IMG/VR virus record: IMGVR_UViG_3300025543_000030
Location: 1-55,994 of that record
Length of the DNA stretch: 55,994 bases
DNA from: a virus
Direction: 5' to 3' (one strand)
Shown in pieces: positions 35-54,495 of the stretch (its first letter is position 1; each line of letters begins with the position of its first letter). Below the pieces are notes generated by a model that ran no database searches, was not told the DNA's origin, and saw only the letters and a program-made list of their open reading frames with translations. The translations under genes were made by a program, and so were the position numbers.

Positions 35-136
35 TCATGTCTTATTTACTCTATTATAATGTTGATCAAGTAGCATGTTGGCAACTTCCATGCTGATCAT
101 ATTGTCGTTATATAATTGCCAAACTAGTTTACTCAT
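35..136 (-). CDS. Hypothetical 33-residue protein
   Basis: I do not recognise this small reading frame. It begins MSKLVWQLYN and ends RVNKT. Its ATG overlaps the end of the DNA ligase gene (ATGAGTAA), the same start/stop overlap used by its neighbours, which suggests translational coupling. No domain or membrane segment is visible. It could be a chance frame; the support is its position and overlap only. Confidence 0.4.
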   Translation of the reverse strand: MSKLVWQLYNDNMISMEVANMLLDQHYNRVNKT

Positions 137-983
137 AATTTCTAATAGTTTTAAATAGTGGATGTCTGTAACTACCGTATTGAGTACGTTCGAAATATGT
201 AAACGTAGCTCTTTGGCCCATATACTTGTGTATATTTTTAAGCATATTAGCTAAATCTTTGTAGTTGTAGCCTTTACCTGGAGGACAACCAAACTTATTA
301 CCATTGTCATCTTGCATTAAGAACTTGCCAAGAGTACCTTCACGTTTGCCTTTACCTTCTTCATAGCCAATAATTGTGGCTTCAGTGTCACTAAAGTCTT
401 TAAACTTTTGTAAGTTGTAAGATCGTTTTTGCTGATAGGGTTTATCTAGACGTAGTATAGAGCCTTCGTAACCGTTATTTAAGTTGTATTGATGTCTTAA
501 CTGTGCAGACTCTTTAGAATTAACTAGAGTAGTTTCTACATATTTAATACAGTAGTTGTACATATCAGAGCAAGTTAGTTGATCAGATCTGTAACTATAA
601 GGCTTGTTCATAACTGTTTCTATATAATCATAGCAATGAAACTGTATTAGTTTTTTAGCATCAGCCTTATCGGCATCAGTTGGTTTTTGTTTTCTAACTA
701 ATGATATAATCTTTTCGAAGTCATCTCTAAGATCATGATTGTATAATTCACCATCAAGAACTATATCTACATTAGCATAGTCAAAGAAAAATTCATTTAA
801 CGATAGTTTAATGTGTTCAAGATTGTGAAATTCTTTACCTGTACGTGAGAAACATCTAATGTTTTCTTTGTCGTCGACATATATAACACAACGTACGCCG
901 TCAAGCTTAGGTTGAATGTATACTTTCTCGGACCAGTCGACAGGTTTTTTGTCTACTTTGTATGCGAGCATTGGTTTAATCAT
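129..983 (-). CDS. ATP-dependent DNA ligase (phage type)
   Basis: Seals nicks in duplex DNA using ATP, during phage replication or repair. The nucleotidyltransferase motifs are visible in order: motif I KLDGVR with the AMP-accepting Lys26, the DGEL motif around Glu79, the YEG motif around Glu173, and the C-terminal motif V QKFK with Lys193 and Lys195. A short OB-fold domain follows, with the GKGKREGTLG segment. At 284 residues it has the minimal length of T7-like viral ligases, without extra DNA-binding domains. The start ATG lies just inside the stop of the upstream 90-residue gene, so the two are probably co-translated. It is the clearest sign that the minus-strand block serves DNA replication. 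Confidence 0.93.
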   Translation of the reverse strand: MIKPMLAYKVDKKPVDWSEKVYIQPKLDGVRCVIYVDDKENIRCFSRTGKEFHNLEHIKLSLNEFFFDYANVDIVLDGELYNHDLRDDFEKIISLVRKQKPTDADKADAKKLIQFHCYDYIETVMNKPYSYRSDQLTCSDMYNYCIKYVETTLVNSKESAQLRHQYNLNNGYEGSILRLDKPYQQKRSYNLQKFKDFSDTEATIIGYEEGKGKREGTLGKFLMQDDNGNKFGCPPGKGYNYKDLANMLKNIHKYMGQRATFTYFERTQYGSYRHPLFKTIRNYE

Positions 984-1252: not shown

Positions 1253-1407
1253 TAATAAGTTAATTTACTAGGGTTAGCTAAAAAATATCTAATATCTAAT
1301 TGTTTTTCTTCTAAGTCTTCAATTCTTACTAATAACTCTTTAAGAGTATAAGACTCACCATCTCGATGAGACTTTACTTTTATTGGTTCTTCAGTTGGTT
1401 TAAACAT
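1252..1407 (-). CDS. Hypothetical 51-residue protein, first gene after promoter P7
   Basis: Not recognised. A charged, probably helical protein with LKELLVRIEDLEEKQ in the middle. An in-frame ATG at 1416 would give MDNMFKPTEE, but that ATG lies at or before the likely transcription start (GGATAAT) of the T7-like motif just upstream. The internal ATG at 1407 (MFKPTEEPIK) is therefore preferred, leaving a leader of about 7 nt. The stop overlaps the next gene's start (TAATG). Confidence 0.55.
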   Translation of the reverse strand: MFKPTEEPIKVKSHRDGESYTLKELLVRIEDLEEKQLDIRYFLANPSKLTY

Positions 1408-1437
1408 ATTATCCATTTTATATCGTATTTACTTTGT
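1407..1437 (-). promoter_or_regulatory. T7-like phage promoter P7
   Basis: On the minus strand the sequence shows AAGTAAATACGA, 8 nt, then GGATAATA. It is one of seven copies with identical spacing in the left block. The AATACGA core and the downstream GG at T7-like distance suggest recognition by a single-subunit phage RNA polymerase. It overlaps the last codons of the 155-residue gene upstream, whose C-terminus is HKVNTI. Confidence 0.7.
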
Positions 1438-1885
1438 GTTTTTCTTTCCAATCAGTGTAACCATAATTGTTTTGTTTGTATTTGTCTAGTAGTTTTTGTG
1501 CACCACCGACAAATTCACAAGTGTTAGTATACTGATTATAAGCGCTTAGCCATACGTCAGGTTTACCTGTCCATATAATCCAAGTGTATTCATGGTCAAT
1601 AGAATCAACATTTGGGTATAAGTACTGACTATTATAATGAAAGTCATGTACTAAATGTGATGCTATTCTTGAACCATCACCGAAGTTTGTAAAACCTCGC
1701 TCACCTTGCATGTGCTGAATCCAGTTAGCAAGTTCTACACCTCTCCACTCAGGATAACCATCATGGTGCAGATACATATGAACATAAGCTTTATCGCTAA
1801 CCAACTGTGGTTTAACTGCAAAGCCTTTTTCAAATTCTTCTGCGTGTGATCTATCGACCACTAGTGTCATATTTCTTGTAGCCAT
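1418..1885 (-). CDS. Conserved-looking phage hypothetical protein, 155 residues
   Basis: Function not recognised. A soluble protein rich in His, Tyr and Trp, without membrane segments. Notable segments are YVHMYLHHDGYPEWRGVELA and GERGFTNFGDGSRIASHLV in the N-terminal half and YTWIIWTG around residue 100. The many aromatics and the compact composition suggest a folded domain, not a spurious frame. Its start overlaps the stop of the small membrane protein upstream by 1 nt. Its last residues, HKVNTI, are encoded by the AAATACGA core of promoter P7, so the tail was probably shaped by the promoter and not by protein function. Confidence 0.7.
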   Translation of the reverse strand: MATRNMTLVVDRSHAEEFEKGFAVKPQLVSDKAYVHMYLHHDGYPEWRGVELANWIQHMQGERGFTNFGDGSRIASHLVHDFHYNSQYLYPNVDSIDHEYTWIIWTGKPDVWLSAYNQYTNTCEFVGGAQKLLDKYKQNNYGYTDWKEKHKVNTI

Positions 1886-2046
1886 TATACTAATTCTTCA
1901 CCTATACTGATTATTTCAGCGATTATTAATACTGCTACACCTAATGACAACGATGACATTAGGATGCTAAAGCCCATTACTCTAAGTATAGACTTGAATA
2001 AACTCACTTTAAAATGTGGAGTGAGTTTGCTTTTAAATTTACTCAT
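1885..2046 (-). CDS. Small single-pass membrane protein, 53 residues
   Basis: Too short to be obvious but well placed: the stop overlaps the next start (TAATG) and an A/T-rich leader precedes the ATG. A basic N-terminus (MSKFKSKLTPHFK) is followed by one hydrophobic stretch (SILMSSLSLGVAVLIIAEII, about residues 27-46) and a short acidic tail. This gives a positive-inside, single-span inner-membrane topology. Function unknown. It lies directly after the tRNA-Gln gene. Confidence 0.6.
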   Translation of the reverse strand: MSKFKSKLTPHFKVSLFKSILRVMGFSILMSSLSLGVAVLIIAEIISIGEELV

Positions 2047-2068
2047 ATTTAATTTAATTTAATGTTAG

Positions 2069-2141
2069 TTGACTCGCTAGGGCTCGAACCTAGACTCTTC
2101 TGGACCAAAACCAGACGTGTTGCCAGTTACACCACGAGTCA
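2069..2141 (-). tRNA. tRNA-Gln (anticodon UUG)
   Basis: Folds by eye as a complete cloverleaf. The acceptor stem TGACTCG/CGAGTCA is a perfect 7 bp, the D-arm stem is GTGT/ACAC, the anticodon stem TCTGG/CCAGA carries loop TTTTGGT with anticodon TTG, and the T-arm CTAGG/CCTAG carries loop TTCGAGC. The discriminator base is A. No CCA is encoded, so the host must add it. It reads CAA, the codon that dominates the glutamine-rich structural genes in this AT-rich genome. Confidence 0.93.
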
Positions 2142-2146
2142 TTATG

Positions 2147-2377
2147 CTAATCTAATAGCACTTGATAAGCTTTAGGGTTGGCTTTTCTAAACCAGTCTAA
2201 GCCTTTTCTTGTTAAATCGTACTTTTGTACCATTTGAGAACCCATAATTAAGTCATACATACTTAATTCTAAGTTGTTTAGTTCGTAAGTATCGCCTGAA
2301 AAAGGGTTTGTTACTGTTTCGCCTTTGTCGTATATTGTACCGTCGAACCATTTAGGTAATTGTGTTTTGTTTTTCAT
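2147..2377 (-). CDS. Small conserved phage protein, 76 residues
   Basis: I recognise the overall pattern (QLPKWFDGTIYDKGETVTNP then FSGDTYELNNLELSMYD and KGLDWFRKANPKAY) as a small protein type recurrent in large lytic phages of aquatic bacteria. No function is known to me. The WFDG and NPFSG segments and the aromatic C-terminal helix suggest a real folded domain. It overlaps the upstream gene by 26 nt and ends 5 nt before tRNA-Gln. Confidence 0.75.
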   Translation of the reverse strand: MKNKTQLPKWFDGTIYDKGETVTNPFSGDTYELNNLELSMYDLIMGSQMVQKYDLTRKGLDWFRKANPKAYQVLLD

Positions 2378-2606
2378 AATCTAAGTAATCTATTCTTTCG
2401 TGATCTTTTTCTATTAATGATGCTATATAATCCCACACTTCACGTTGTTGTTTTGTGTGTCTCAATACGCCTTCTAGTTGGTCTATTGTTATAAAAGGTG
2501 TTATATTATCTTTTATTTCTTGCTTTAACCTGCTAATGTCAGTGTCTAGACTGTATACATTAGCAAAAGCTTTGTCATGAGCTAAATCTTTTATTCTACT
2601 TTCCAT
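2352..2606 (-). CDS. Hypothetical helical protein, 84 residues
   Basis: Not recognised. Predominantly helical and charged (DISRLKQEIKDNITPFITID and REVWDYIASLIEKDHERIDY), without membrane segments or cysteines. Its start shares one base with the previous stop and its 3' end overlaps the next gene by 26 nt, so translation is probably coupled. It is the second gene downstream of promoter P6. Confidence 0.6.
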   Translation of the reverse strand: MESRIKDLAHDKAFANVYSLDTDISRLKQEIKDNITPFITIDQLEGVLRHTKQQREVWDYIASLIEKDHERIDYLDYEKQNTIT

Positions 2607-2839
2607 TATTTATTAATTATATTGTTACCATATAATAAATCTTGAGCAGACAACTTGTAAGTTGGTATGTCACAGTAAACTGATATATCAGATACTTGAC
2701 TAACTGTTAAGTCATACCATGACGTTTTAGACATAAGTACATATTTAAGTCTTTTAGCGCTAGAATACTGTCTAGCATTTTTTTGCAGTGACGACTTAAA
2801 ACCTGGTTCTAGTCTGTCATAAATTGTTTTGATTCTCAT
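2606..2839 (-). CDS. Hypothetical basic protein, 77 residues
   Basis: First gene after promoter P6; the ATG lies about 13 nt after the predicted +1, a leader length shared with other promoter-proximal genes here. The protein is basic with many Ser and Tyr (SLQKNARQYSSAKRLKYVLM). A helix-turn-helix-like pattern cannot be excluded (TVSQVSDISVYCDIPTYKLS resembles a recognition-helix region), but this is weak. Function unknown; a small regulator or host-takeover protein is possible. Confidence 0.6.
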   Translation of the reverse strand: MRIKTIYDRLEPGFKSSLQKNARQYSSAKRLKYVLMSKTSWYDLTVSQVSDISVYCDIPTYKLSAQDLLYGNNIINK

Positions 2840-2844
2840 ATTTA

Positions 2845-2877
2845 TATTATCCGTGTTAATTCGTATTTAGTTTGTAA
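2845..2877 (-). promoter_or_regulatory. T7-like phage promoter P6
   Basis: The minus strand shows ACAAACTAAATACGA, 8 nt, then GGATAATA. The ATG of the 77-residue gene follows about 13 nt after the GG. The ACAAACTAA part also encodes the end (VTN, stop) of the upstream gene. Confidence 0.75.
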
Positions 2878-3079
2878 CATATCTTTCTTTGTTACTATCG
2901 ATTATTTCACCGATTTCATCTTGCATAGACACTATATCCATAGCAAGTAGCTGTAGTTCTGCTAAACCATTTACTTCGTAAGTACTTAGATTATTGACTT
3001 CGTTATCTTGTATAGCGTTTACGCAGTCTTGTAACGCTCTTGCAGTATTCTCGAATCTGCAGTAACTCATGTTTGGCAT
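2867..3079 (-). CDS. Small conserved phage protein with SYCRFENT motif, 70 residues
   Basis: Begins MPNMSYCRFENTARALQDCV, a signature I associate with a small protein of unknown function common in tailed phages, with two conserved cysteines and an acidic helical remainder. A longer in-frame version would start at 3112, but the ATG at 3079 follows a typical A/T leader and places the signature at the N-terminus, so it is preferred. It ends in VTN with the stop codon inside promoter P6. It lies immediately downstream of the structured RNA region. Confidence 0.75.
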   Translation of the reverse strand: MPNMSYCRFENTARALQDCVNAIQDNEVNNLSTYEVNGLAELQLLAMDIVSMQDEIGEIIDSNKERYVTN

Positions 3080-3112
3080 ATTTAATTTATTTAATGTTAG
3101 AGTGGCGACCAA

Positions 3113-3178
3113 CCTGTGAGCAATGTCGTAAGCTTCTCACGGTGAATGCAACGTGTGACTAATTTCACCAGTCTGTAG
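3113..3178 (-). other. Non-coding segment with hairpins, downstream of tRNA-like RNA
   Basis: No reading frame. The minus-strand transcript can form GGTGAA/TTCACC (plus positions 3141-3146 with 3164-3169) and a second GTGAG/CTCAC hairpin closer to 3113. It may be the 3' trailer or a third domain of the structured RNA cluster that starts at 3342. Function unknown. Confidence 0.35.
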
Positions 3179-3252
3179 TGGAAGTGGGCGGAGTCGAACC
3201 GCCGTTAGACACCTTTGCTTTCGCCGCGGTTGTCTCTTACCTTATCACTCCC
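3179..3252 (-). ncRNA. tRNA-like RNA lacking a normal D-arm and anticodon arm
   Basis: The minus strand has a tRNA acceptor stem (GGGAGTG with CACTTCC, one G-U), a canonical T-arm (GGCGG, loop TTCGACT, CCGCC), discriminator A, and the right total length (about 74 nt). The middle does not give a cloverleaf. Instead of a D-stem and a 7-nt anticodon loop it forms one long hairpin, AGACA-A-CC...GG-TGTCT, capped by GC-GAAA-GC. This resembles the tRNA-like domain of tmRNA without the messenger part, or a degenerate tRNA. No anticodon can be assigned, and no CCA is encoded. Confidence 0.5.
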
Positions 3253-3255
3253 ATT

Positions 3256-3342
3256 GGCCGGCTATTCACTTATGTGTGTGTAGCATTATCTCCAGTGGTT
3301 CTCGACACCACATACACACCTAATTAAGCTACTCGTCCGGCC
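3256..3342 (-). ncRNA. Putative 87-nt structured RNA next to the tRNA-like RNA
   Basis: Non-coding, GC-richer than its surroundings. The ends pair as GGCCGG with CCGGCC. Inside are GTGTGT/ACACAC and the hairpin GTGGT-GTCGAGA-ACCAC. A further GTAGC/GCTAC pairing crosses the GTGTGT stem and would make a pseudoknot. No known riboswitch or ribozyme core was recognised. It abuts the tRNA-like RNA and is co-transcribed from P5 through the 62-residue gene. Confidence 0.4.
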
Positions 3343-3346
3343 TCTT

Positions 3347-3535
3347 TTATTTTCTACGCCAAGCTTTGTGTACTTGATCACTTAGTTCTTGACTTACTAC
3401 TTGTATTTCTAGAACTTGTTTGTTAGCAATAATAGGTATATAGCTATATTGCTGAGTTGAACTACAGTTTACACAATTTGAATAACCTAATGCTATTCTG
3501 CCTGCCGGTATTTTGTTATTACATTTACATTTCAT
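3347..3535 (-). CDS. Small CxC...CxxC zinc-binding-like phage protein
   Basis: The N-terminus has MKCKCNNKIPAGRIALGYSN then CVNCS, four cysteines in a CxC/CxxC arrangement of a zinc-ribbon type, followed by a beta-rich tail (SYIPIIANKQVLEIQVVSQE). I recognise this as a small protein frequent in tailed phages; its function is not established to me. An upstream in-frame ATG (MDNNN, 3550) lies at or before the predicted +1 of promoter P5, so the ATG at 3535, with a 13-nt leader, is chosen. Confidence 0.75.
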   Translation of the reverse strand: MKCKCNNKIPAGRIALGYSNCVNCSSTQQYSYIPIIANKQVLEIQVVSQELSDQVHKAWRRK

Positions 3536-3540
3536 ATTAT

Positions 3541-3573
3541 TATTATCCATTAATAATCGTATTTAGTTTGTAA
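3541..3573 (-). promoter_or_regulatory. T7-like phage promoter P5
   Basis: Minus-strand ACAAACTAAATACGA, 8 nt, GGATAATA, with an ATG 13 nt after the GG. The promoter is wholly inside the 3' end of the upstream 42-residue gene, encoding its NYKLNTIING tail and stop codon. Confidence 0.75.
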
Positions 3574-3671
3574 TTAAATCGTCTATAATATTCTACTTCA
3601 AGCCTTTCCGCTTCATACTTAGTTATTTTAAGTAGTTTAATGTGCTTATGTCTTAGTTTTCTAGTCTTCAT
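3543..3671 (-). CDS. Hypothetical very basic 42-residue protein
   Basis: Starts MKTRKLRHKHIKLLKITKYE, a strongly basic N-terminus that could bind nucleic acid. It ends NYKLNTIING, encoded by promoter P5. Its ATG overlaps the last codons of the preceding gene. Function unknown. The composition and the start/stop overlap support it as a gene, but it is short. Confidence 0.5.
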   Translation of the reverse strand: MKTRKLRHKHIKLLKITKYEAERLEVEYYRRFNYKLNTIING

Positions 3672-3861
3672 CTAATCCAGCATGTAATTTTTCTATTGTT
3701 GCTATCATTATAGCATTGTGAACATGGTTATAATCCTCGCTGTCAAGTCCTTCAAACTCTTCAACGCCATCCATTGCCCAATTTACTGCTTCATACAATG
3801 TTTCTTTGATGTGAGACACTTGAGCGTCTGCTATTTCATCTATAATTTTCATTTTACTCAT
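3661..3861 (-). CDS. Hypothetical acidic protein, 66 residues
   Basis: Not recognised. An acidic helical protein (MSKMKIIDEIADAQVSHIKE, then WAMDGVEEFEGLDSEDYNHV) ending AGLDED. It overlaps both neighbours by a few bases, as is usual in this block. A small acidic phage protein of this kind could be a host-factor inhibitor or DNA mimic, but nothing in the sequence proves it. Confidence 0.6.
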   Translation of the reverse strand: MSKMKIIDEIADAQVSHIKETLYEAVNWAMDGVEEFEGLDSEDYNHVHNAIMIATIEKLHAGLDED

Positions 3862-4115
3862 AATATTGCTTTTTTAACTTGTTTTAAATCGTATTTTTCA
3901 TGTGAATCACGCCACATTTTGTGCATTGTGTACTTACTTGATTGAGTATACGATGTTTTACCACGTAATTTAACCTGTTTGTACTCGCGATCGGTAAATG
4001 GTTGGCATTCACCGTGCACTTTGTTAAGCTCATAGTGTTGAAAACTACGTTGTTTACGCTTGTTTTTAACATATTGCTTTAGTTCTTGCATATTTCTACA
4101 CATATATTCTATCAT
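3858..4115 (-). CDS. Hypothetical basic protein, 85 residues
   Basis: Basic protein (about one quarter Lys/Arg) with QYVKNKRKQRSFQHYELNKV and the C-terminal EKYDLKQVKKAIL. Not recognised; the charge suggests nucleic-acid contact. The annotated ATG overlaps the preceding gene by 20 nt. Internal Met codons (MCRNMQ, MQELKQ) could be the true start, so the N-terminus is uncertain. Confidence 0.6.
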   Translation of the reverse strand: MIEYMCRNMQELKQYVKNKRKQRSFQHYELNKVHGECQPFTDREYKQVKLRGKTSYTQSSKYTMHKMWRDSHEKYDLKQVKKAIL

Positions 4116-4242
4116 TTATGCGATAAAACGAAGTGTAATTTGTATACTCTATGTTTTGATGTAGTGGAGTAAGCACTTGGTAACCTTTGTCTGTTTCTAA
4201 CAGAACATTACCTGTTTCTTGATTGAATTTGATTTGTTTCAT
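4096..4242 (-). CDS. Hypothetical 48-residue protein, first gene after promoter P4
   Basis: Starts MKQIKFNQETGNVLLETDKG and ends RINDRIYV. The pattern is of a small beta-strand domain, not a random frame. The ATG is about 15 nt after the predicted +1 of P4. Not recognised. Its 3' end overlaps the next gene. Confidence 0.5.
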   Translation of the reverse strand: MKQIKFNQETGNVLLETDKGYQVLTPLHQNIEYTNYTSFYRINDRIYV

Positions 4243-4249
4243 ATACTTA

Positions 4250-4282
4250 TATTATCCATTAGTTTTCGTATTTAGTTTGTAA
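4250..4282 (-). promoter_or_regulatory. T7-like phage promoter P4
   Basis: Minus-strand ACAAACTAAATACGA, 8 nt, GGATAATA. It overlaps the 3' end of the 147-residue gene, encoding its NYKLNTKTNG terminus and stop, and drives the 48-residue gene and those below it. Confidence 0.75.
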
Positions 4283-4695
4283 TTTCTTATGTAGAAGTCT
4301 AACATAAATTTCATGCGAGCTAAAGTGTTCCAGATTTTAGTTCTAGTGTAACCATTGTAGATATATGTTTTAAGTGTACCTTCATCAGTTAGAAACATTT
4401 GTCTTTGCTCTCTTTTATAAACTGGATTTAGTTGATAGTTAGATGAGCAAGAGTTTACATTTCTTACATAACCTGATTTATACACTGCTAATCTTAGTTT
4501 TATTTTAGAGGCAAATCTCTCACCTTTTAAATGGAAATATCTTGATGGTACAGGAAATTCAAATTCTCTTGTGCCATTTATTGCTTGTCTTTGTGTGGTT
4601 ACTTCTTTGATATTATGCTCTATTAATAGTCTTCTAGCAAAAGAATCCTCGAGCATTTGATTTTCTTGTTGCCAAGTGTATTTATTTGTACTCAT
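4252..4695 (-). CDS. Hypothetical basic protein, 147 residues
   Basis: Not recognised. Starts MSTNKYTWQQENQMLEDSFA. The middle is basic and aromatic (FPVPSRYFHLKGERFASKIK, then LAVYKSGYVRNVNSC), and TLKTYIYNGYTRTKIWNTLA lies near the C-terminus. No signal peptide or membrane segment. It overlaps the preceding gene by 14 nt. The final NYKLNTKTNG is promoter-encoded and probably not functional protein sequence. Confidence 0.65.
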   Translation of the reverse strand: MSTNKYTWQQENQMLEDSFARRLLIEHNIKEVTTQRQAINGTREFEFPVPSRYFHLKGERFASKIKLRLAVYKSGYVRNVNSCSSNYQLNPVYKREQRQMFLTDEGTLKTYIYNGYTRTKIWNTLARMKFMLDFYIRNYKLNTKTNG

Positions 4696-4909
4696 TGTAA
4701 TAAGGTTTAGTATAGTTAGTATTAAAGTTAATTGATTTAGCTACATTTTGTCGCCATTGCCACTCACGCTTGCGATACTCATAGCTTTGACACCATTTTT
4801 TCACAGCAGTAACTTGTGGTATTTCACCGTATTTTGCTTCATAGTCAAGACATTGTTGTAACTTTGCTTTGATTTCTGACGCTGGATAGTCTTTAAATTT
4901 TGTATTCAT
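4682..4909 (-). CDS. Hypothetical Trp/Tyr-rich protein, 75 residues
   Basis: First gene after promoter P3. The ATG at 4909 (MNTKFKDYPASEIKAKLQQC) is chosen over the in-frame ATG at 4924 (MDNTS), which lies at or before the likely +1. The region VKKWCQSYEYRKREWQWRQN is rich in aromatics and arginine. Not recognised. Confidence 0.6.
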   Translation of the reverse strand: MNTKFKDYPASEIKAKLQQCLDYEAKYGEIPQVTAVKKWCQSYEYRKREWQWRQNVAKSINFNTNYTKPYYNEYK

Positions 4910-4914
4910 ACTAG

Positions 4915-4946
4915 TATTATCCATTAGTAGTCGTATTTAGTTTGTG
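4915..4946 (-). promoter_or_regulatory. T7-like phage promoter P3
   Basis: Minus-strand ACAAACTAAATACGA, 8 nt, GGATAATA, with the next ATG 13 nt after the GG. It overlaps the end of the 43-residue gene (tail HKLNTTTNG). Confidence 0.75.
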
Positions 4947-5048
4947 AGTTTCGATAATACCAAGAACATCTGCTCTTGTTAGTTTATTTTCCATTTGTAG
5001 ACCAATAGCCCACGTTAAATCATTATTATATTTATCAGTGAAAATCAT
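4917..5048 (-). CDS. Hypothetical 43-residue protein
   Basis: Starts MIFTDKYNNDLTWAIGLQME and ends with the promoter-encoded HKLNTTTNG. Its ATG overlaps the stop of the small membrane protein upstream (ATGA). Function unknown. Confidence 0.5.
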   Translation of the reverse strand: MIFTDKYNNDLTWAIGLQMENKLTRADVLGIIETHKLNTTTNG

Positions 5049-5185
5049 ACGCCTACAAATATTACTTGATAAAACATAAATAGTATTCCTGATACTGACA
5101 TTGGTAGTAATACTCCGAAAGCATAAACTTCTAGTATTACTAAGTGTAAAGGTTTTGACTTTACATATTTTCTTATTTTTCTCAT
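5045..5185 (-). CDS. Small membrane protein, 46 residues
   Basis: A basic N-terminus (MRKIRKYVKSKP) is followed by a hydrophobic segment of about 30 residues (LVILEVYAFGVLLPMSVSGI then LFMFYQVIFVGV), giving one long or two short membrane spans. The ATG is preceded by an A/T-rich leader. Overlaps the next gene by 4 nt (ATGA). Function unknown. Confidence 0.55.
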   Translation of the reverse strand: MRKIRKYVKSKPLHLVILEVYAFGVLLPMSVSGILFMFYQVIFVGV

Positions 5186-5210
5186 ATTATTAAATTTTAT
5201 TATTGTTAGT

Positions 5211-5250
5211 AGACATGGTGAGAATCGAACTCACATTAACCATTATGTCT
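5211..5250 (-). ncRNA. T-arm-like RNA element (tRNA remnant or minimal tRNA-like hairpin)
   Basis: The minus strand contains a perfect T-arm (GTGAG, loop TTCGATT, CTCAC) closed by AGACAT/ATGTCT with a 9-nt bulge. No D-arm or anticodon arm can be built upstream in the proper spacing. It may be a decayed tRNA or a tRNA mimic. A 10-nt repeat (TTGTTAGTAG on the plus strand) lies at about 5205 and again at about 5300, on both sides of the element. Confidence 0.35.
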
Positions 5251-5310
5251 TGTACTCATTCGCAATTTTATACTGTTAGAAACAAGTGGAACTCGCAGTG
5301 TTGTTAGTAG

Positions 5311-5538
5311 TTATACTAATTCTACATTTCTTAGTGCAACTGGAATATTATTAGTTGCGGTGTAAGACTTGTACTTTTGAAAGCAATTCATACTTTGTAA
5401 CTTACTTTTCATAATGTTGTACGCTATGTCATGATTGTAAGTGTATGTAATACCTTTTTTGTTAGTAAATTCTATTGTTACATTTTTTCCGATTAGTGAC
5501 TGTCTGATGACAAATCTTTTTGAAGTTATTTTACTCAT
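5311..5538 (-). CDS. Hypothetical protein, 75 residues
   Basis: Starts MSKITSKRFVIRQSLIGKNV at the ATG preceded by an A/T-rich leader. A longer frame up to 5589 would need a TTG start overlapping the promoter P2 start site and is not favoured. Beta-strand-rich (KNVTIEFTNKKGITYTYNHD) then helical. Resembles small beta-barrel phage proteins, but I cannot name it. Confidence 0.6.
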   Translation of the reverse strand: MSKITSKRFVIRQSLIGKNVTIEFTNKKGITYTYNHDIAYNIMKSKLQSMNCFQKYKSYTATNNIPVALRNVELV

Positions 5539-5579
5539 ATTATATTTATTTATTTTATTTATTAGTTGTTTTACATTTA

Positions 5580-5612
5580 TATTATCCAATTGATGTCGTA
5601 TTTAGTTTGTAA
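5580..5612 (-). promoter_or_regulatory. T7-like phage promoter P2
   Basis: Minus-strand ACAAACTAAATACGA, 8 nt, GGATAATA. The stop codon of the 41-residue gene (LTN, stop) lies inside ACAAACTAA. The leader to the next ATG is about 48 nt. Confidence 0.75.
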
Positions 5613-5727
5613 GTTCTACTACGATTTCTTCATATAGATAATCTAGTATAGTCTCATTGTACTTATCTTTACACATAGTATTGTCATATGGAAACTTTAC
5701 TTTTAACTCTTGTATTAATTCATTCAT
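5602..5727 (-). CDS. Hypothetical acidic 41-residue protein
   Basis: Starts MNELIQELKVKFPYDNTMCK and ends YLYEEIVVELTN. Acidic and helical. It is the first credible gene after promoter P1. Function unknown. Confidence 0.5.
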   Translation of the reverse strand: MNELIQELKVKFPYDNTMCKDKYNETILDYLYEEIVVELTN

Positions 5728-5782
5728 AGTAGTGTATATTTATTTGGTAGTTAATATTAGTCGAATGGTATACCACACTCAT
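5720..5782 (-). CDS. Possible 20-residue leader peptide
   Basis: ATG at 5782 opens a frame of 20 residues (starting MSVVYHSTNINYQI) whose stop overlaps the next gene's ATG. It is the only open frame between P1 and the 41-residue gene. It may be a leader peptide or chance. Confidence 0.2.
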   Translation of the reverse strand: MSVVYHSTNINYQINIHYYE

Positions 5783-5822
5783 TCTTATGAAGTAACTATT
5801 ATTACTTAATTACTTACATTTA

Positions 5823-5855
5823 TATTATCCAAGTAGACTCGTATTTACTTTGTAA
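5823..5855 (-). promoter_or_regulatory. T7-like phage promoter P1 (most upstream)
   Basis: Minus-strand ACAAAGTAAATACGA, 8 nt, GGATAATA. It is the outermost of the seven copies, at the head of the minus-strand block, and the only one not lying over or at the 3' end of a gene. Confidence 0.75.
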
Positions 5856-5927: not shown

Positions 5928-5939
5928 TCACAATTGTGA
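5928..5939. promoter_or_regulatory. Perfect 12-bp palindrome, operator candidate
   Basis: TCACAATTGTGA is a perfect inverted repeat in the divergent intergenic region. This is the typical size and symmetry of a dimeric regulator site. It adjoins the A-tract of the terminator hairpin. The 147-residue winged-helix-like protein encoded in the window is one possible binder; this is speculation. Confidence 0.35.
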
Positions 5940-5958
5940 AAAAAAGTGGGGCCGCCCC
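5939..5958 (-). terminator. Rho-independent-type terminator, minus strand
   Basis: On the minus strand GGGG-CGG-CCCC is followed by AC and seven T residues, a standard intrinsic terminator shape. It stands out in AT-rich surroundings. It would stop leftward transcription arriving from the fibre side before it reaches promoter P1. Confidence 0.55.
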
Positions 5959-6206
5959 GCCAAACCAAAACGATTTTGTGTAACACGTTGATAACCAGAG
6001 GGATAGGGGTAACACCATACTTCTATATATCTAACAACTTTTTAGTGACATAAGCCTATTAATAGTATAGAGTAACAGGCTATTGTCACACTTTGCTTTT
6101 ATTCAGTTCTATACGCAAGTAAACCTTAGCAAAAACCTGTGATATTACTAACCATAGTGCGCTTCACAAAAGTCCGTATAGAATAATGCATTAAAAAAAA
6201 TAAACA

Positions 6207-47382: not shown

Positions 47383-50300
47383 ATGCCAAGATATAAAGCT
47401 AACGGAAAAATATATAATCTTCCTGAGGAAAAAGTAGAGCAATTTTTGCAAACTTATCCAAATGCAATTTTAGTTGAAGATGAAGAAGTAAAGTTAAACG
47501 GTATTGCGGAGACGGATGCGTCTGTAATACCAGGGAAAAATATGGCGTCCACATCGGATCCTGGTTCTTCGGGTTTACCAAAAATACCAACTCAAATAGG
47601 TGATGAGTTGCAAGGTGTATCTATAGATGATATACCAAGAGAAACACCAACTAATGGTGAATTAGTATTTGGTGACCCTAGAGATTTAAATACGCAGATT
47701 ACAGATTATAGAAAAGATTATATTGATGCTTTTAATGGTAGAGGTCGATTTGCTGAAATGTTGGTTGATAAAAATCCTAAAGAACGTTTAGAATTAATTG
47801 AGAGATTAATACCTAAACCTAAGTATGTAGATAAAAAATACAATAAACAAACAGATTCTTATGATGAAAAACCTACAGAAGAAGCTGTAGAAATTTTTAG
47901 CTCTTATTTACCTTCTGATTTTGATTTATTTGATAAACCTGAGCAGTTTAACAAAGCTATGGAAGATGCTAAAGTGCAAGCTTTAAATAATGATCCTGTA
48001 GTTAAAATTATGTTAGGCGCAAGAATGTCTATTGTAACTAAAGAAGCTGAGCAATATAAATTAGATTTAGCTAAAAAATATAATTTAAACGATCCTAATG
48101 ATTATGACAAAGCCGAGAAGGATTATCAAAATTGGTTTAATACAAATGTTGTACAATATGTAGAAGATTCTGAAACCGTGCAAGCAATAGAAGATCAATT
48201 AGAAGATGTTGGAAACGTTGCTATGTCAAATAGAAACACAGAATATGGTCGTGATAAAGATTTTATGCTTTCAGCTTTTGATTTTGACAAAGATTCTAGT
48301 GTTTTAGATTTTGGAGAAGCAATGTATAAAAGTGTAAGACAAATGGGTGTTAGTTATAGAAAATCTGTAACTAGTCAATTTCATGGTAATATAATAAAAT
48401 ACGATAAAAAATTACAAGATTATAAAAAAAGACTGGATGCTGGAAAAATTAGTCAAGAAAAATATGATGGCTTAGTTAAGTATTATGAAAATAGAAAAGA
48501 AAAAGCTCAACGCTCTATAGTAAACAACGTTAAAGCTATTTCTGAAACTGAAGGTTATTTAAGTTTATTTGAAAAATCTGATTTAAAAGATGGTGCGCAA
48601 TTTGAGGATCTTATAAGAATAGTTGGTGAAGCAATACCTCAATTTGCTGCTGCTGGCGCAGGTGCTGTAACAGGTAATCCAGCTTTGGCGAGCATGGGTT
48701 TAATTTCTATATTTGGTCAAGAGTATGGCAATAATTACTACGAAGCAATAGCAGAAGGTCTTTTAGCTGAAGGTATTAAACCCACGGAAGAAAATATAGC
48801 TAAAGCCATAAGCGATGGTAAATATGCTAATAGAGCTGAAGCTGCTGCTTTTGCTGCTTTAGGAACTGCTTTAGAAAGAGTTGGAGCTAAAGGCATTATG
48901 AAAGATCTTGCTAAAAACATAGGTTTCCAAAATCTTAAAAAAATGTCTTCATCAATATATAAAAATGGTATAAAAGATTTTGTTAAAAAATTAGTAAAAA
49001 AAATACCAAGTTTTGCTAAATCCCCTGCAAGAGAATATTTAACTGAAGGCGCTCAAACAGGTTTATCACAATTATCTGTTGGTTCACAACTAGAATTAGA
49101 AACAGATTTAAACTTAGGGTATACAAAATTTTTAAATGGAGAAGAAATATTAGAAGCCGCTGAAGCAGGTGGTTGGGTTGGTGGAATACTACGCGTAGGC
49201 GGCGCAACAATAAACCAAACAACTCTTGAACTTAGAAATTCAGCTAGAGATGTTGCTACTAAATTTGATTTAAAAGGTAGTATGCTTAAAAAAGTTAATG
49301 GATTTTTTAAAGCTGTAGAACAAGATTTAAAAGTTAGGTTTGAAAAAGGAGAACTTACACAAGATCAATATCAAGAAGAATTACAAAATCTTAGTAACAC
49401 TAGAAATACAGGTATTAAAATACCTAAAAATTACAGCGAAGAAAGCAAACAAAGAGCTTTTGATTTAATTTTTGAAAAAACTAAACTTACTAATGAAATA
49501 GCTGGTTTAGATGAAAGTTCAGTTGAGCCTCAAAAAGAACAAATAAAAGATATAAACACAGAGTTAGCTGTAATATCTTTAATTGAAAAAGGTAGAATTA
49601 AAGCTGATCAAGACAGTGCACAAGATACCGCTAGCGCTACTAAAATAGGTAAACAGTTAGGTTTTAGTGTTAACAAGCTAACGCCAGAACAGATAAAAGA
49701 AAAAGGATATAACGTTAAAGAAGATTTAGGTTTTATAGAAGGTGATCAAATATTTTTAAATGAAGATTTGATTGGTAAAAGTACAAACGTTAAAACAGCT
49801 TCTCACGAGCTGTTGCATGGTATACTGTATAATTCTATAAAAAATGGTAAACTAAGTAGATCTATTATAGAAAAATGGTATAAAAATAATTTGTCAGAAG
49901 AGCAAATAAAAGTTTTAGATCAAAGAATGGAAGATGGGGGTTATAAAACTCTTAAAACTAAAGAAGGTAAAAACTATTTAGATGTAAGACCCGATGAATA
50001 TTTAACTCAAATATACGAAGCTGGTTTAATTGATCAACCTGGTATGTTTGAAAAAGTAAAACTTTTAGTTCAAGATATTTTAAATTTAATCCCTGGCGTA
50101 AATGTTAAGTTTGTTAAAAAAGATGATTTAAAAGATTTTTTAAGAGCTTATCAAACAAGCATAAAAACAGGCAAGTTATCTCAAAAAGTTGTAGATGTAG
50201 TGGGTGGTAGAATTGATGTTAAAGCACCGGTTGCTTCTTCAAAAATAACACCTAAAGCTCAAGAATTTATTGCATTAAATAAAGAAGGTGTTATTACTAA

Positions 50301-53300
50301 CGAAGCGTTAGTAGATATTATAAATTCTCCTTCATCTACTTCGGTAGATAAATTTGGAGCTATAGAAGCTGTTGTAGAGGCTAATTGGCCTGTTATAAGT
50401 AATGCTATAAAGTTTAACCCAACAGGTGCTATACCTATGGATGCTGTTAAAACAGCTGTAACAGAGCAAATTCAAGGTATATTTCCAGGTAGAAAAGTTC
50501 CTTTGTTTAAAGGTTATAATGAAAGCCAAGGTAAAGTAAATACTGTTATTAGTAGTTTTTTAAGACCAAGACAAGCTGAAATATTAGAAAGAGCTAAAAA
50601 AATAGGTGGAATAACACAAGAAGGTGCTAGTGTTGACTCTAAAGAAGCTAAACAAATTAAAGATACTACTACAGAAAAACTTACAGAACAAGTTGCTACA
50701 AAACCTGTAAAGGCTAAAGAAAGTTTAAGAAAAAAAATTAAACTTACTGATGCTACGAGCAAAAAAGTAGTTGATGCTGTTGTAAAAACATTTGGTACTA
50801 AGTTACCTCCTGCAGATTCTAAACAATTTAAACAAGCGTTGTTAAAAGCTTTTAAAACAGAATTAAAAACAACTATAGCTAAAGACGTTTTAGGATCAAG
50901 AGCGGCTTATGAAACTTTTTTAAGAGATAACTTTGAAGCTATAATAGAAGCATTACCTCAAGACGTTATAAATAAAAGGTTTAGACCGTTTGCAGAAGAC
51001 ACTGGTAAAAGAGAAAAAACCAAAGAAGGTAAAAAGATATTTAAGAAAAAAGATATTACTAAAGCGGAATTTATAAAATACTTTTTAGGTAGAAATGTAG
51101 GTACATCAACTAAAGGTACTAGAAAAGATGCTTTAGCAGAGGCTTTAGCTCAGGAATTTGCAACAGATGCTACTATGCAAACTATACAAAGACCTGATGT
51201 AAAAGAAAAAAGAGAGTTTGTAGACAAAACACAGACTACGGAAAAAGTTAGTAAAGCAATAGATAGACCTACAGATTTTGCTTTTAGTAAAGTAGCTCAA
51301 GACGCAATAGATAATATTGATTTTGCAGTTGAAGCTGCTCAAGGAAGAGTTAAAGTTGATGGTTTATTAAAGTTTTATAAATTACAAAACACTTTAGTTA
51401 TTAAAAGTGAAAAAGATATAGATGCTTATGTTGATAAAATGATTGAAGATGTTTTTCCATTACTACCAAGAGAAGCATTTTTTGGTCCTAGTGGAGGAAC
51501 TGCATTTACAAGTAGTAGTAAAATATTTGGTTTTAAAACATCAAAAGATCCTTTATGGGAAAAGGTTGTAAATAAATTTAAATCTTTAAATAAACCTAAA
51601 ATTGATGGTAAAGATAATCCAAACTACGTTCCTGATAGCGCTTTTGGTAAACCAATATTAGATAATAGAGGTAATCCTATTGATTTTAAAGTTTCTTCAT
51701 ACGCTACTTTGTTTAAAAATCCAGCTACTATAGAAAAAAATATTAAAAATGGAAACATTGATAAATTTAATACTAAAGTTAGATTGATTCATGAAACTTT
51801 ATGGAAAAGAATAAATGAATCTATTTCAAAAAACAAAAATGCAGCTACAGGAATAGCTACATATTTAAGAATAACAGCGAACGATACTAAACATTGGCAC
51901 AAACAAGGCGCTGCTTTCGTAGGGTATTCTACAAAACCTGTTGGAAAAGTTAATTCCAAAGGTAAAAGAACGTTATATGAATATGAGCACGCTATGCCTG
52001 CTACCGCTGCTTACTTATATTTATTAGATGTTGCTTTGAGTAAGGGCAATTTTAAACCTGCTTATAATGCTGTAATGGATAATTACAAGTTAATTGCATT
52101 AGACAAGGCAGATAATGCTAAATTAGCTAAGGCTAAACTTGGAATTGGTATGCCTAAAGGCTGGAAGCTAGGTGAAAATTTTTGGTGGCAAAGATATTTT
52201 AACAGTGAAGTTGCTAAGTTCGACGGCGGAATAAACCCTATTTCTTTAACATTCACCAATGGAAGAACTTTTGCTGACCAACTTCAAATAAATTCATCTG
52301 GTAATTTTTCAACACCAGCTTTTTCTAAAGCTAGAAAACAGGCTAAAGTTTATAATGAAAAAATATTACCACCTGTTATAGATAAAAAGTTTGACAAAAA
52401 TACAACTAATGATCAGGTTTTAGATGAAATGGAAAAACTTGATAAAGAAGCTTCAGACGCTAGAGTTGCTTTTAGTAAAACTCAAGATCTTAATAAAGAT
52501 TTTAATGATATAATTGAAAGAGCTACAGGTATTGGTACGGAAAAAAGATATGGTCAAACTAAAGCTAGAGCTGTAGGCGCAGATAAAGGTAAATTTAATT
52601 TACTAGGTATACCACCGTCTGCTCAAGACTTTGTAGGTTTAACTAGGTACTTTGCTGGTAAAGGAAAACAAGGTGATGAAACTATTGCTTGGGTAAAAGA
52701 AAACTTTTTAGATCCATTTGCTAGAGCTAATATAGATATATCAAATGCTAGAGTTGCTTTAGCTAATGACTTTAAAGCTTTAAAAAAGCTATTAGGTGTT
52801 AGTCCTAAAGATTTAAATAAAAAAATAACTGGTGAACCTTATACTGTAGGTAATGCTGTTAGAGTTTATACGTGGATACAACAAGGTATGACTATACCAG
52901 GTTTATCTAAGACTGATCAAAAAATACTAGAAGACTATGTTACTGCAGATGAAAACCTAGTTACATTTGCTAATGAGCTTATAGCTATAAACAAAGATAA
53001 CGGTTACCCTAAACCTACTGATGGTTGGTTGGCTGGAACTATTACTACAGATTTACTTTCAGGTTTAAACACTGTAGTAAGAGCTAAGTATCTAAAACAA
53101 TGGCAAAATAATGTTGATGAAGTATTTAGTGAAACTAACATGAACAAGCTCGAGGCAGCTTATGGTAAAGGCTACAGAGATGCTTTAGAAAACATGCTTG
53201 GTCGTATGAAAACTGGTAGTAACAGAGGTTTTAAAGGTGATACATTAACTGGTAGATTTATTGATTGGATTAATAATTCTGTTGGGGCTATCATGTTTTT

Positions 53301-54495
53301 TAATATGAGATCTGCTGTGTTACAAACTATATCAGCTGTTAACTTTGTGAACTGGTCTGATAACAACCCATTAAAAGCAGCGGCTGCATTTGCAAATCAA
53401 CTTCAGTATTGGAAAGATGTAATGAAACTCATGAACTCTGATTACTTAGTTGAAAGACGTAATGGTTTAAAAATAAATGTTAGTGAAGCTGATATTGCTG
53501 AGATCGCTGCTGAGTCTAAAAACAAAGCTAAAGCTTTTATAAGTAAAATATTAAAACTAGGTTTTCTACCTACACAAATAGCAGATAGTTTTGCCATTGC
53601 TTCAGGTGGTGCTACGTTTTATAGAAACAGATATAAAAGTTTAAAGAAAGAAGGTTTATCTGACAAAGAAGCTGAGGCGCAAGCATTCCAAGATTTTAGA
53701 GAAATAGCTGAAGAGTCACAACAATCAAGTAGACCTGATAGAATTAGTCAACAGCAAGCAGGGCCAATGGGACGTATTATATTAGCTTTTGCTAATACCC
53801 CAGCCCAATATGCTAGATTAATGCAAAAAGCCGCTAGTGATCTTAAGAATCGCCGAGGAGATGATAAAACTAATATATCTAAGATATTATATTACGGAGC
53901 TATACAAAATGTTATATTCAACGCTTTACAACAAGCTTTATTTGCTATGGCGTTTGGAGATGAAGAGCCTGATGAAGAAAAACTAAACAAAAAGTATACA
54001 GGTATAGCAAACGGTATGGCTGACTCATTATTAAGAGGTGTTGGTTTTCATGGTGCCGCTATATCTACACTTAAAAATGTAGTAATGAAATTAGCAGAAG
54101 GTAAAGAAGCTCAAGACGCTGCAATAGAGTTGTTAGATATTTCACCTCCTATATCTTCTAAAATAGGTAAATTAAAATCTGCAGGTAGAACGTGGGACTG
54201 GAATAAGAAAGAGATAATAGAAAAAGGTTGGTCATTAGATAACCCTGCTTATTTAGCTGCTGGCCAAGTTATTAGTGCTGCTACAAATGTACCGCTTGAT
54301 AGAGGTATAAGAAAGTTACAAAATTTAAAAGATGCGTCTGATGCTGAAAATGAAGAGTGGATGCGAGTGGCTAATGCTTTAGGTTGGGCAAAATGGGAAT
54401 TAGAGTGGCAAAAAGATAAACCAAAAAAGAAAAAGAAAAAAAGAACATTAGGTAAAAGTTTAAGAAAAAGTTTTGGAAAAAAATTAAAATTATAA
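47383..54495 (+). CDS. Giant virion protein with HELLH metallopeptidase motif, 2370 residues
   Basis: The largest gene in the window, probably an ejected internal virion protein (T7 gp16-like position). Starts MPRYKANGKIYNLPEEKVEQ. Residues about 410-450 are a hydrophobic Ala/Gly region. TASHELLHGI at residues 804-814 gives a zincin HELLH (808-812), with Asp871/Glu872 as a possible third ligand, fitting large polyvalent phage proteins that carry peptidases. The C-terminal third contains NSVGAIMFFNMRSAVLQTIS (possible membrane segment) and IILAFANTPAQYARLMQKAA, and the end is a Lys/Arg tail (KPKKKKKKRTLGKSLRKSFG). Function in DNA entry is inferred. Confidence 0.75.
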   Translation: MPRYKANGKIYNLPEEKVEQFLQTYPNAILVEDEEVKLNGIAETDASVIPGKNMASTSDPGSSGLPKIPTQIGDELQGVSIDDIPRETPTNGELVFGDPRDLNTQITDYRKDYIDAFNGRGRFAEMLVDKNPKERLELIERLIPKPKYVDKKYNKQTDSYDEKPTEEAVEIFSSYLPSDFDLFDKPEQFNKAMEDAKVQALNNDPVVKIMLGARMSIVTKEAEQYKLDLAKKYNLNDPNDYDKAEKDYQNWFNTNVVQYVEDSETVQAIEDQLEDVGNVAMSNRNTEYGRDKDFMLSAFDFDKDSSVLDFGEAMYKSVRQMGVSYRKSVTSQFHGNIIKYDKKLQDYKKRLDAGKISQEKYDGLVKYYENRKEKAQRSIVNNVKAISETEGYLSLFEKSDLKDGAQFEDLIRIVGEAIPQFAAAGAGAVTGNPALASMGLISIFGQEYGNNYYEAIAEGLLAEGIKPTEENIAKAISDGKYANRAEAAAFAALGTALERVGAKGIMKDLAKNIGFQNLKKMSSSIYKNGIKDFVKKLVKKIPSFAKSPAREYLTEGAQTGLSQLSVGSQLELETDLNLGYTKFLNGEEILEAAEAGGWVGGILRVGGATINQTTLELRNSARDVATKFDLKGSMLKKVNGFFKAVEQDLKVRFEKGELTQDQYQEELQNLSNTRNTGIKIPKNYSEESKQRAFDLIFEKTKLTNEIAGLDESSVEPQKEQIKDINTELAVISLIEKGRIKADQDSAQDTASATKIGKQLGFSVNKLTPEQIKEKGYNVKEDLGFIEGDQIFLNEDLIGKSTNVKTASHELLHGILYNSIKNGKLSRSIIEKWYKNNLSEEQIKVLDQRMEDGGYKTLKTKEGKNYLDVRPDEYLTQIYEAGLIDQPGMFEKVKLLVQDILNLIPGVNVKFVKKDDLKDFLRAYQTSIKTGKLSQKVVDVVGGRIDVKAPVASSKITPKAQEFIALNKEGVITNEALVDIINSPSSTSVDKFGAIEAVVEANWPVISNAIKFNPTGAIPMDAVKTAVTEQIQGIFPGRKVPLFKGYNESQGKVNTVISSFLRPRQAEILERAKKIGGITQEGASVDSKEAKQIKDTTTEKLTEQVATKPVKAKESLRKKIKLTDATSKKVVDAVVKTFGTKLPPADSKQFKQALLKAFKTELKTTIAKDVLGSRAAYETFLRDNFEAIIEALPQDVINKRFRPFAEDTGKREKTKEGKKIFKKKDITKAEFIKYFLGRNVGTSTKGTRKDALAEALAQEFATDATMQTIQRPDVKEKREFVDKTQTTEKVSKAIDRPTDFAFSKVAQDAIDNIDFAVEAAQGRVKVDGLLKFYKLQNTLVIKSEKDIDAYVDKMIEDVFPLLPREAFFGPSGGTAFTSSSKIFGFKTSKDPLWEKVVNKFKSLNKPKIDGKDNPNYVPDSAFGKPILDNRGNPIDFKVSSYATLFKNPATIEKNIKNGNIDKFNTKVRLIHETLWKRINESISKNKNAATGIATYLRITANDTKHWHKQGAAFVGYSTKPVGKVNSKGKRTLYEYEHAMPATAAYLYLLDVALSKGNFKPAYNAVMDNYKLIALDKADNAKLAKAKLGIGMPKGWKLGENFWWQRYFNSEVAKFDGGINPISLTFTNGRTFADQLQINSSGNFSTPAFSKARKQAKVYNEKILPPVIDKKFDKNTTNDQVLDEMEKLDKEASDARVAFSKTQDLNKDFNDIIERATGIGTEKRYGQTKARAVGADKGKFNLLGIPPSAQDFVGLTRYFAGKGKQGDETIAWVKENFLDPFARANIDISNARVALANDFKALKKLLGVSPKDLNKKITGEPYTVGNAVRVYTWIQQGMTIPGLSKTDQKILEDYVTADENLVTFANELIAINKDNGYPKPTDGWLAGTITTDLLSGLNTVVRAKYLKQWQNNVDEVFSETNMNKLEAAYGKGYRDALENMLGRMKTGSNRGFKGDTLTGRFIDWINNSVGAIMFFNMRSAVLQTISAVNFVNWSDNNPLKAAAAFANQLQYWKDVMKLMNSDYLVERRNGLKINVSEADIAEIAAESKNKAKAFISKILKLGFLPTQIADSFAIASGGATFYRNRYKSLKKEGLSDKEAEAQAFQDFREIAEESQQSSRPDRISQQQAGPMGRIILAFANTPAQYARLMQKAASDLKNRRGDDKTNISKILYYGAIQNVIFNALQQALFAMAFGDEEPDEEKLNKKYTGIANGMADSLLRGVGFHGAAISTLKNVVMKLAEGKEAQDAAIELLDISPPISSKIGKLKSAGRTWDWNKKEIIEKGWSLDNPAYLAAGQVISAATNVPLDRGIRKLQNLKDASDAENEEWMRVANALGWAKWELEWQKDKPKKKKKKRTLGKSLRKSFGKKLKL

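Follow-up and report, generated by a model that had tools for sequence, protein, structure and literature searches.

The middle promoters of phage T4, which depend on MotA and AsiA, combine a sigma70-like -10 element with a phage-specific box in the place of the -35 element and are used by the host sigma70 together with an activator. Phages phiEco32 and 7-11 encode sigma factors of their own, gp36 and gp47, respectively, which read the phages' own promoters, transcription starting 6-9 nt away from the promoter element (PMC8948821). We propose that the DNA described here belongs to a comparable system, in which a phage sigma factor redirects the host polymerase to repeated phage promoters. It differs from phiEco32 and 7-11 in that the consensus is unrelated, the promoters serve a block of small genes, where those of the two phages serve middle or late genes, the protein is a clear sigma70-type protein with regions 2 and 4, and many of the predicted starts are leaderless. 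As in the T4 middle promoters, a sigma70-like -10 element is found with a phage-specific box in the -35 place, but here the phage carries the sigma gene and no MotA-like protein was identified. No description of a promoter or sigma factor of this kind was found in the literature searched, of which the coverage was partial.

The window, that is the whole stretch of DNA analysed, is the 55,994-base IMG/VR record IMGVR_UViG_3300025543_000030, which is linear and probably partial. A scan of the whole window for ACAAASTAAATACGA-N8-GGATAATA gave seven exact matches, all on the minus strand, against a chance expectation of zero in 100 dinucleotide shuffles, and no eighth copy was found even when up to three mismatches were allowed. 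Seven minus-strand copies with a fixed 8-nt gap, as reported in a preliminary description of this DNA, are therefore borne out; the copies given there are real, although for six of them the ends were set 1-2 bases too long. Its remark that the plus-strand block has no copies is true of the window, but the truncated relative contig G043, in which just the junction and the late block are present and no sigma gene is visible, has one copy facing the late block.

The motif occurs in at least 118 stretches of IMG/VR contigs, and in all 47 long contigs the copies lie on one strand per contig. In ten motif contigs that were taken whole and compared, most copies are located between a divergent junction and a ligase gene, where small conserved genes form a block. 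As the motif is found near the starts of many different genes in many genomes, it is not an artefact of a conserved protein repeat, an explanation that the preliminary description had named as fatal to its reading. A collection of bacterial and archaeal genomes gave 45 motif stretches, 44 of which were single matches, about the level that we estimate for chance, and the only contig with several copies (four, on one strand) belonged to a Flavobacteriaceae MAG. The motif therefore looks phage-specific.

An alignment of 312 copies (217 non-redundant) gave the consensus TTACAAACTAAATACGA-N7-Y-GGATAATA, which has a sigma70 layout with a -35 CAAACT, 17 bp and a -10 GATAAT. The TAATA following GGA, which lay outside the search seed, is conserved in 99% of the copies, and no gap other than 8 nt between AATACGA and GGATAAT was found. 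For a GATAAT -10 element, the expected +1 falls on position 14 if the first G of the GG is taken as position 1 (GG+14). This position is a purine in 211 of 217 non-redundant copies (97%, p~1e-31) and still in 112 of 118 (95%, p~2e-14) once copies with an ATG overlapping the +1 are removed; the preceding base is commonly a pyrimidine. The elements are thus repeated and carry a -35, a -10, a spacer within the 16-18 bp range and a purine at +1. The first ATG is found exactly at the predicted +1 in 73 of 312 copies, and since the predicted first nucleotide is then the A of the ATG, these mRNAs would be leaderless. In 54 of the 312 copies, of the longer-leader class and including those with predicted starts at 5574 and 5817 of the window, ATGTAA spans the predicted start, which would give an RNA beginning with GUAA.

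The seven elements of the window are very probably promoters. Read along the minus strand, the first (5823..5853) has its -35 CAAAGT at 5852-5847, its -10 GATAAT at 5829-5824 and a predicted +1 G at 5817; the first ORF starts with the ATG at 5727, giving a predicted 90-nt leader. Upstream of this copy, in the divergent region, GGGGCGGCCCC followed by ACTTTTTTT forms a terminator-like palindrome at 5930-5975 (minus strand). The second copy (5580..5610; -35 5609-5604, -10 5586-5581, +1 G 5574) precedes an ATG at 5538, with a predicted leader of 36 nt, and the gene family behind it is present in nine of the ten related contigs compared. Three copies are predicted to be leaderless, with the +1 being the A of the ATG: the third (4915..4945; -35 4944-4939, -10 4921-4916, +1 A 4909), the fifth (3541..3571; -35 3570-3565, -10 3547-3542, +1 A 3535) and the sixth (2845..2875; -35 2874-2869, -10 2851-2846, +1 A 2839, ORF 2606-2839). 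Homologues of the gene behind the fifth copy start at the same Met in several other genomes (e.g. MKCRC..., MRCKC...). The fourth copy (4250..4280; -35 4279-4274, -10 4256-4251, +1 A 4244) would give a 2-nt leader before the ATG at 4242. The preliminary description had placed the copies usually just before a gene start, and indeed, for six of the seven, a frame of 30 or more codons starts with an ATG 0-90 nt past the predicted +1. In the seventh (1407..1437; -35 CAAAGT 1436-1431, -10 1413-1408, +1 A 1401), the sole nearby ATGs (1416 and 1407) lie upstream of the predicted +1. A few other copies in the alignment likewise have their only good ATG upstream, which counts against a sigma reading.

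The position of the copies near start codons, with GGATAATA 5' of the ATG, could also point to an RNA or translation element, or to some other DNA-binding site at gene starts, and not to a promoter. We consider this very improbable, as conservation begins as far as 38 nt before the predicted start and the distance to the ATG ranges from 0 to ~100 nt while the +1 purine is fixed.

The promoter-rich block is closed by an ATP-dependent DNA ligase gene (129..983, minus strand). The block also contains a phage-borne tRNA-Gln (TTG) gene at 2068-2141 (minus strand) and an ORF-free stretch at 3100-3345, which has partial DNA matches in contigs G022, G030 and G033. Within this stretch, a tRNA-like domain at 3176-3252 (minus strand) matches the Rfam tmRNA model with 36 bits, where the gathering score is 47, and may be a phage tmRNA that is shortened or otherwise unusual.

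The preliminary description had read the motif as T7-like promoters, used by a single-subunit RNA polymerase that starts at the GG. The likeness is real, as T7 promoters have AATACGA, ACTA and GG at similar, if not quite identical, spacing, and in the phage copies ACTA is enriched in the spacer at the corresponding -6..-3 (47 versus 11.7 expected), which counts against a sigma reading. The strict spacing and the clustering on one strand would also suit such an enzyme, and a fully fixed 8-nt gap together with an invariant AATACGA between the -35 and the -10 is unusual for a sigma promoter. However, no match to PF00940 was found in any of the 47 long motif records or the eight named relatives, while the T7 RNA polymerase used as a control was found with an E value of 1e-109. 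Contig G009, the two ends of which have gene content in common, also has no such polymerase among its proteins scanned. A start at the GG is not supported either: the purine signature is found at GG+14, a position without meaning under the T7 model, and the GG becomes AG, TG or CG and AATACGA becomes ACACGA or is lost in relatives that carry the sigma gene described below. We therefore regard a T7-like system as very unlikely. The broader expectation of the preliminary description, that directional, repeated promoter-like elements point to a transcription factor which is specific to the phage and encoded beyond the window, is upheld.

A protein of ~250 amino acids with sigma regions 2 and 4 is encoded in nine of the ten contigs compared whole, and the tenth (G025) is cut off at the ligase gene. 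In these relatives, the sigma gene is located ~1-3 kb past the ligase gene; in the window, this place lies beyond the left end, so that the window stops short of the gene. In G013 (65743-66503, two frames) and G004 (55767-56520, frame shifts or stops), the sigma frame is broken, perhaps by sequencing error. When all 47 motif contigs are considered, a sigma70-family protein was detected by PF04542 or by a family profile in 39, and the other eight end before the place of the sigma gene, as does the window. The protein matches PF04542, PF04545 and phrog_351, and its profile finds FliA and SigA in the PDB with E values of about 6e-10. A predicted structure, of modest confidence (pLDDT 72, pTM 0.49), had RNA polymerase holoenzyme or sigma chains as its best 50 Foldseek matches. 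The family was not found in named phages, apart from a cyanophage, where the match was distant and partial. By eye, sigma region 2.4 seems to differ from E. coli sigma70 at two residues that we take to face position -12 (Q437 to G and T440 to R), and these changes would be compatible with the G at -12. Directly before the sigma gene, there is a gene for a ~205-amino-acid protein whose C-terminal part weakly matches an HTH (12457-13071 in L135, with homologues in the compared genomes), which is a candidate partner or regulator.

An outward search from the sigma gene yielded 80 loci, 68 of which hold the motif with at most three changes in the upstream box, with 378 copies on the sigma strand and six on the opposite strand. 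Promoter and sigma gene thus occur together both in the motif contigs and at the sigma loci, and both are absent from all eight named relatives tested. An unseeded search of the sigma loci without the motif revealed the variants ACACGA-N9-GATAAT, CGGACT-N17-GATAAT and CAAACT-N16-GATATT, which also mostly carry a purine at +1. Across the loci, the base preceding GATAAT can be G, A, T or C, while the GATAAT-like -10, the spacing and the +1 purine largely persist in a clustering that was seeded on GATA[AT]T. That the GG and AATACGA drift while these features are kept fits a sigma factor and not a T7-like polymerase.

One observation that weighs against the sigma model concerns co-variation of the upstream box with the sigma sequence. 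Over 54 loci, the correlation of the box with the whole sigma sequence was low (Mantel r 0.11, p 0.09), with other genes being equal or higher, and it was r 0.17 (p 0.03) for sigma region 4 and r 0.06 for the HTH neighbour. No convincing co-varying partner of the box was found among the sigma factor, its neighbour and 26 gene families. As the box tracks the sigma factor no more than it tracks other genes, a second factor is possible, and one might speculate that a phage or host sigma factor acts on GATAAT while a separate phage DNA-binding activator acts on the -38..-22 box, much like MotA in T4. The box fills the -35 and the spacer and is invariant in the main group, it differs between L192/L204 and L188/L194, phages almost alike in sigma region 4, while the -10 is kept, and a gene with an HTH adjoins the sigma gene. 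On the other hand, no neighbouring gene family, including the HTH neighbour, convincingly co-varies with the box, and an activator is unnecessary for explaining the spacing and the +1. We regard such joint reading as less likely than not; it is a refinement of the sigma model and not its opposite. In its composite form, which we hold to be similarly doubtful, the phage sigma factor would read only the -10 and a second phage protein would read the 17-bp box from -38 to -22.

The promoter block looks early, and early promoters can also be thought of as targets of a packaged virion RNA polymerase of the N4-like or crAss-like kind. Giant virion-block proteins of ~1,700-3,900 amino acids exist in the motif phages, and the candidate enzyme in the window would be a 2,370-amino-acid protein encoded at 47383-54495 (plus strand), for which no match in Pfam, PHROG or the PDB and no relatives in named phages were found. 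The giant proteins tested likewise gave no polymerase match in Pfam or PHROG, DxDGD signatures are sporadic and at no common place, and the +1 signature is of the sigma70 type. We regard a virion polymerase as very improbable.

We consider it highly likely that all seven elements act as promoters of the sigma70 type within a phage regulon, used by the host core polymerase with the phage sigma factor. In this model, the host multisubunit RNA polymerase would carry the phage-encoded sigma factor of ~250 amino acids, which would bind the -35 CAAACT within TTACAAACTAAATACGA and the -10 GATAAT within GGATAATA, 17 bp apart. RNA would begin at the purine 7 nt past the -10, and at many promoters this purine would be the A of the ATG, yielding a leaderless mRNA, with a short leader at most of the others. 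As the sigma gene lies downstream and in the same direction, it is probably itself transcribed from these promoters as well. From the sequences, we infer the sigma factor as the reader of the promoters, as well as the start sites and the timing.

The terminase of the window resembles those of Flavobacteriia phages (62% for MW202828, 44% for Flavobacterium elemo phages), its portal protein also matches that of Cellulophaga phage phi38:1 (35%), and GroEL/GroES-like genes are present. Terminase and portal are homologous to those of MW202828 and of the Pervagoviridae, Pachyviridae and Elemovirus flavophages (phi38:1, Calle_1, phi18:3, Gundel_1 and the elemo phages), with the virion block and GroEL in common where compared. 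These named relatives infect flavobacteria; unlike the motif contigs, the eight that were tested have neither the sigma gene nor the promoter motif. In Flavobacterium psychrophilum, the housekeeping -7 box is TAnnTTTG, and leaderless mRNAs make up only 5.5% of those examined (PMC9723704). GATAAT is unlike this box, as would be expected if the phage sigma factor is needed. Flavobacterial housekeeping promoters (TTG-N17-24-TAnnTTTG) were not clearly enriched over shuffles, so that no positions could be assigned to early host promoters.

Taken together, this gives a transcription system, with a sigma factor, a promoter, predicted starts and a regulon, for uncultured marine phages that form a large group and have flavobacterial relatives. 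It also illustrates that T7-like letters by themselves are no proof of a T7-like polymerase. Most small genes of the promoter block in these phages are unknowns, and the promoter marks both their starts and the regulon. Should the composite promoter prove true, the box would switch between phages whose sigma factors are almost alike, and many mRNAs of the regulon would be leaderless in hosts that seldom make such mRNAs.
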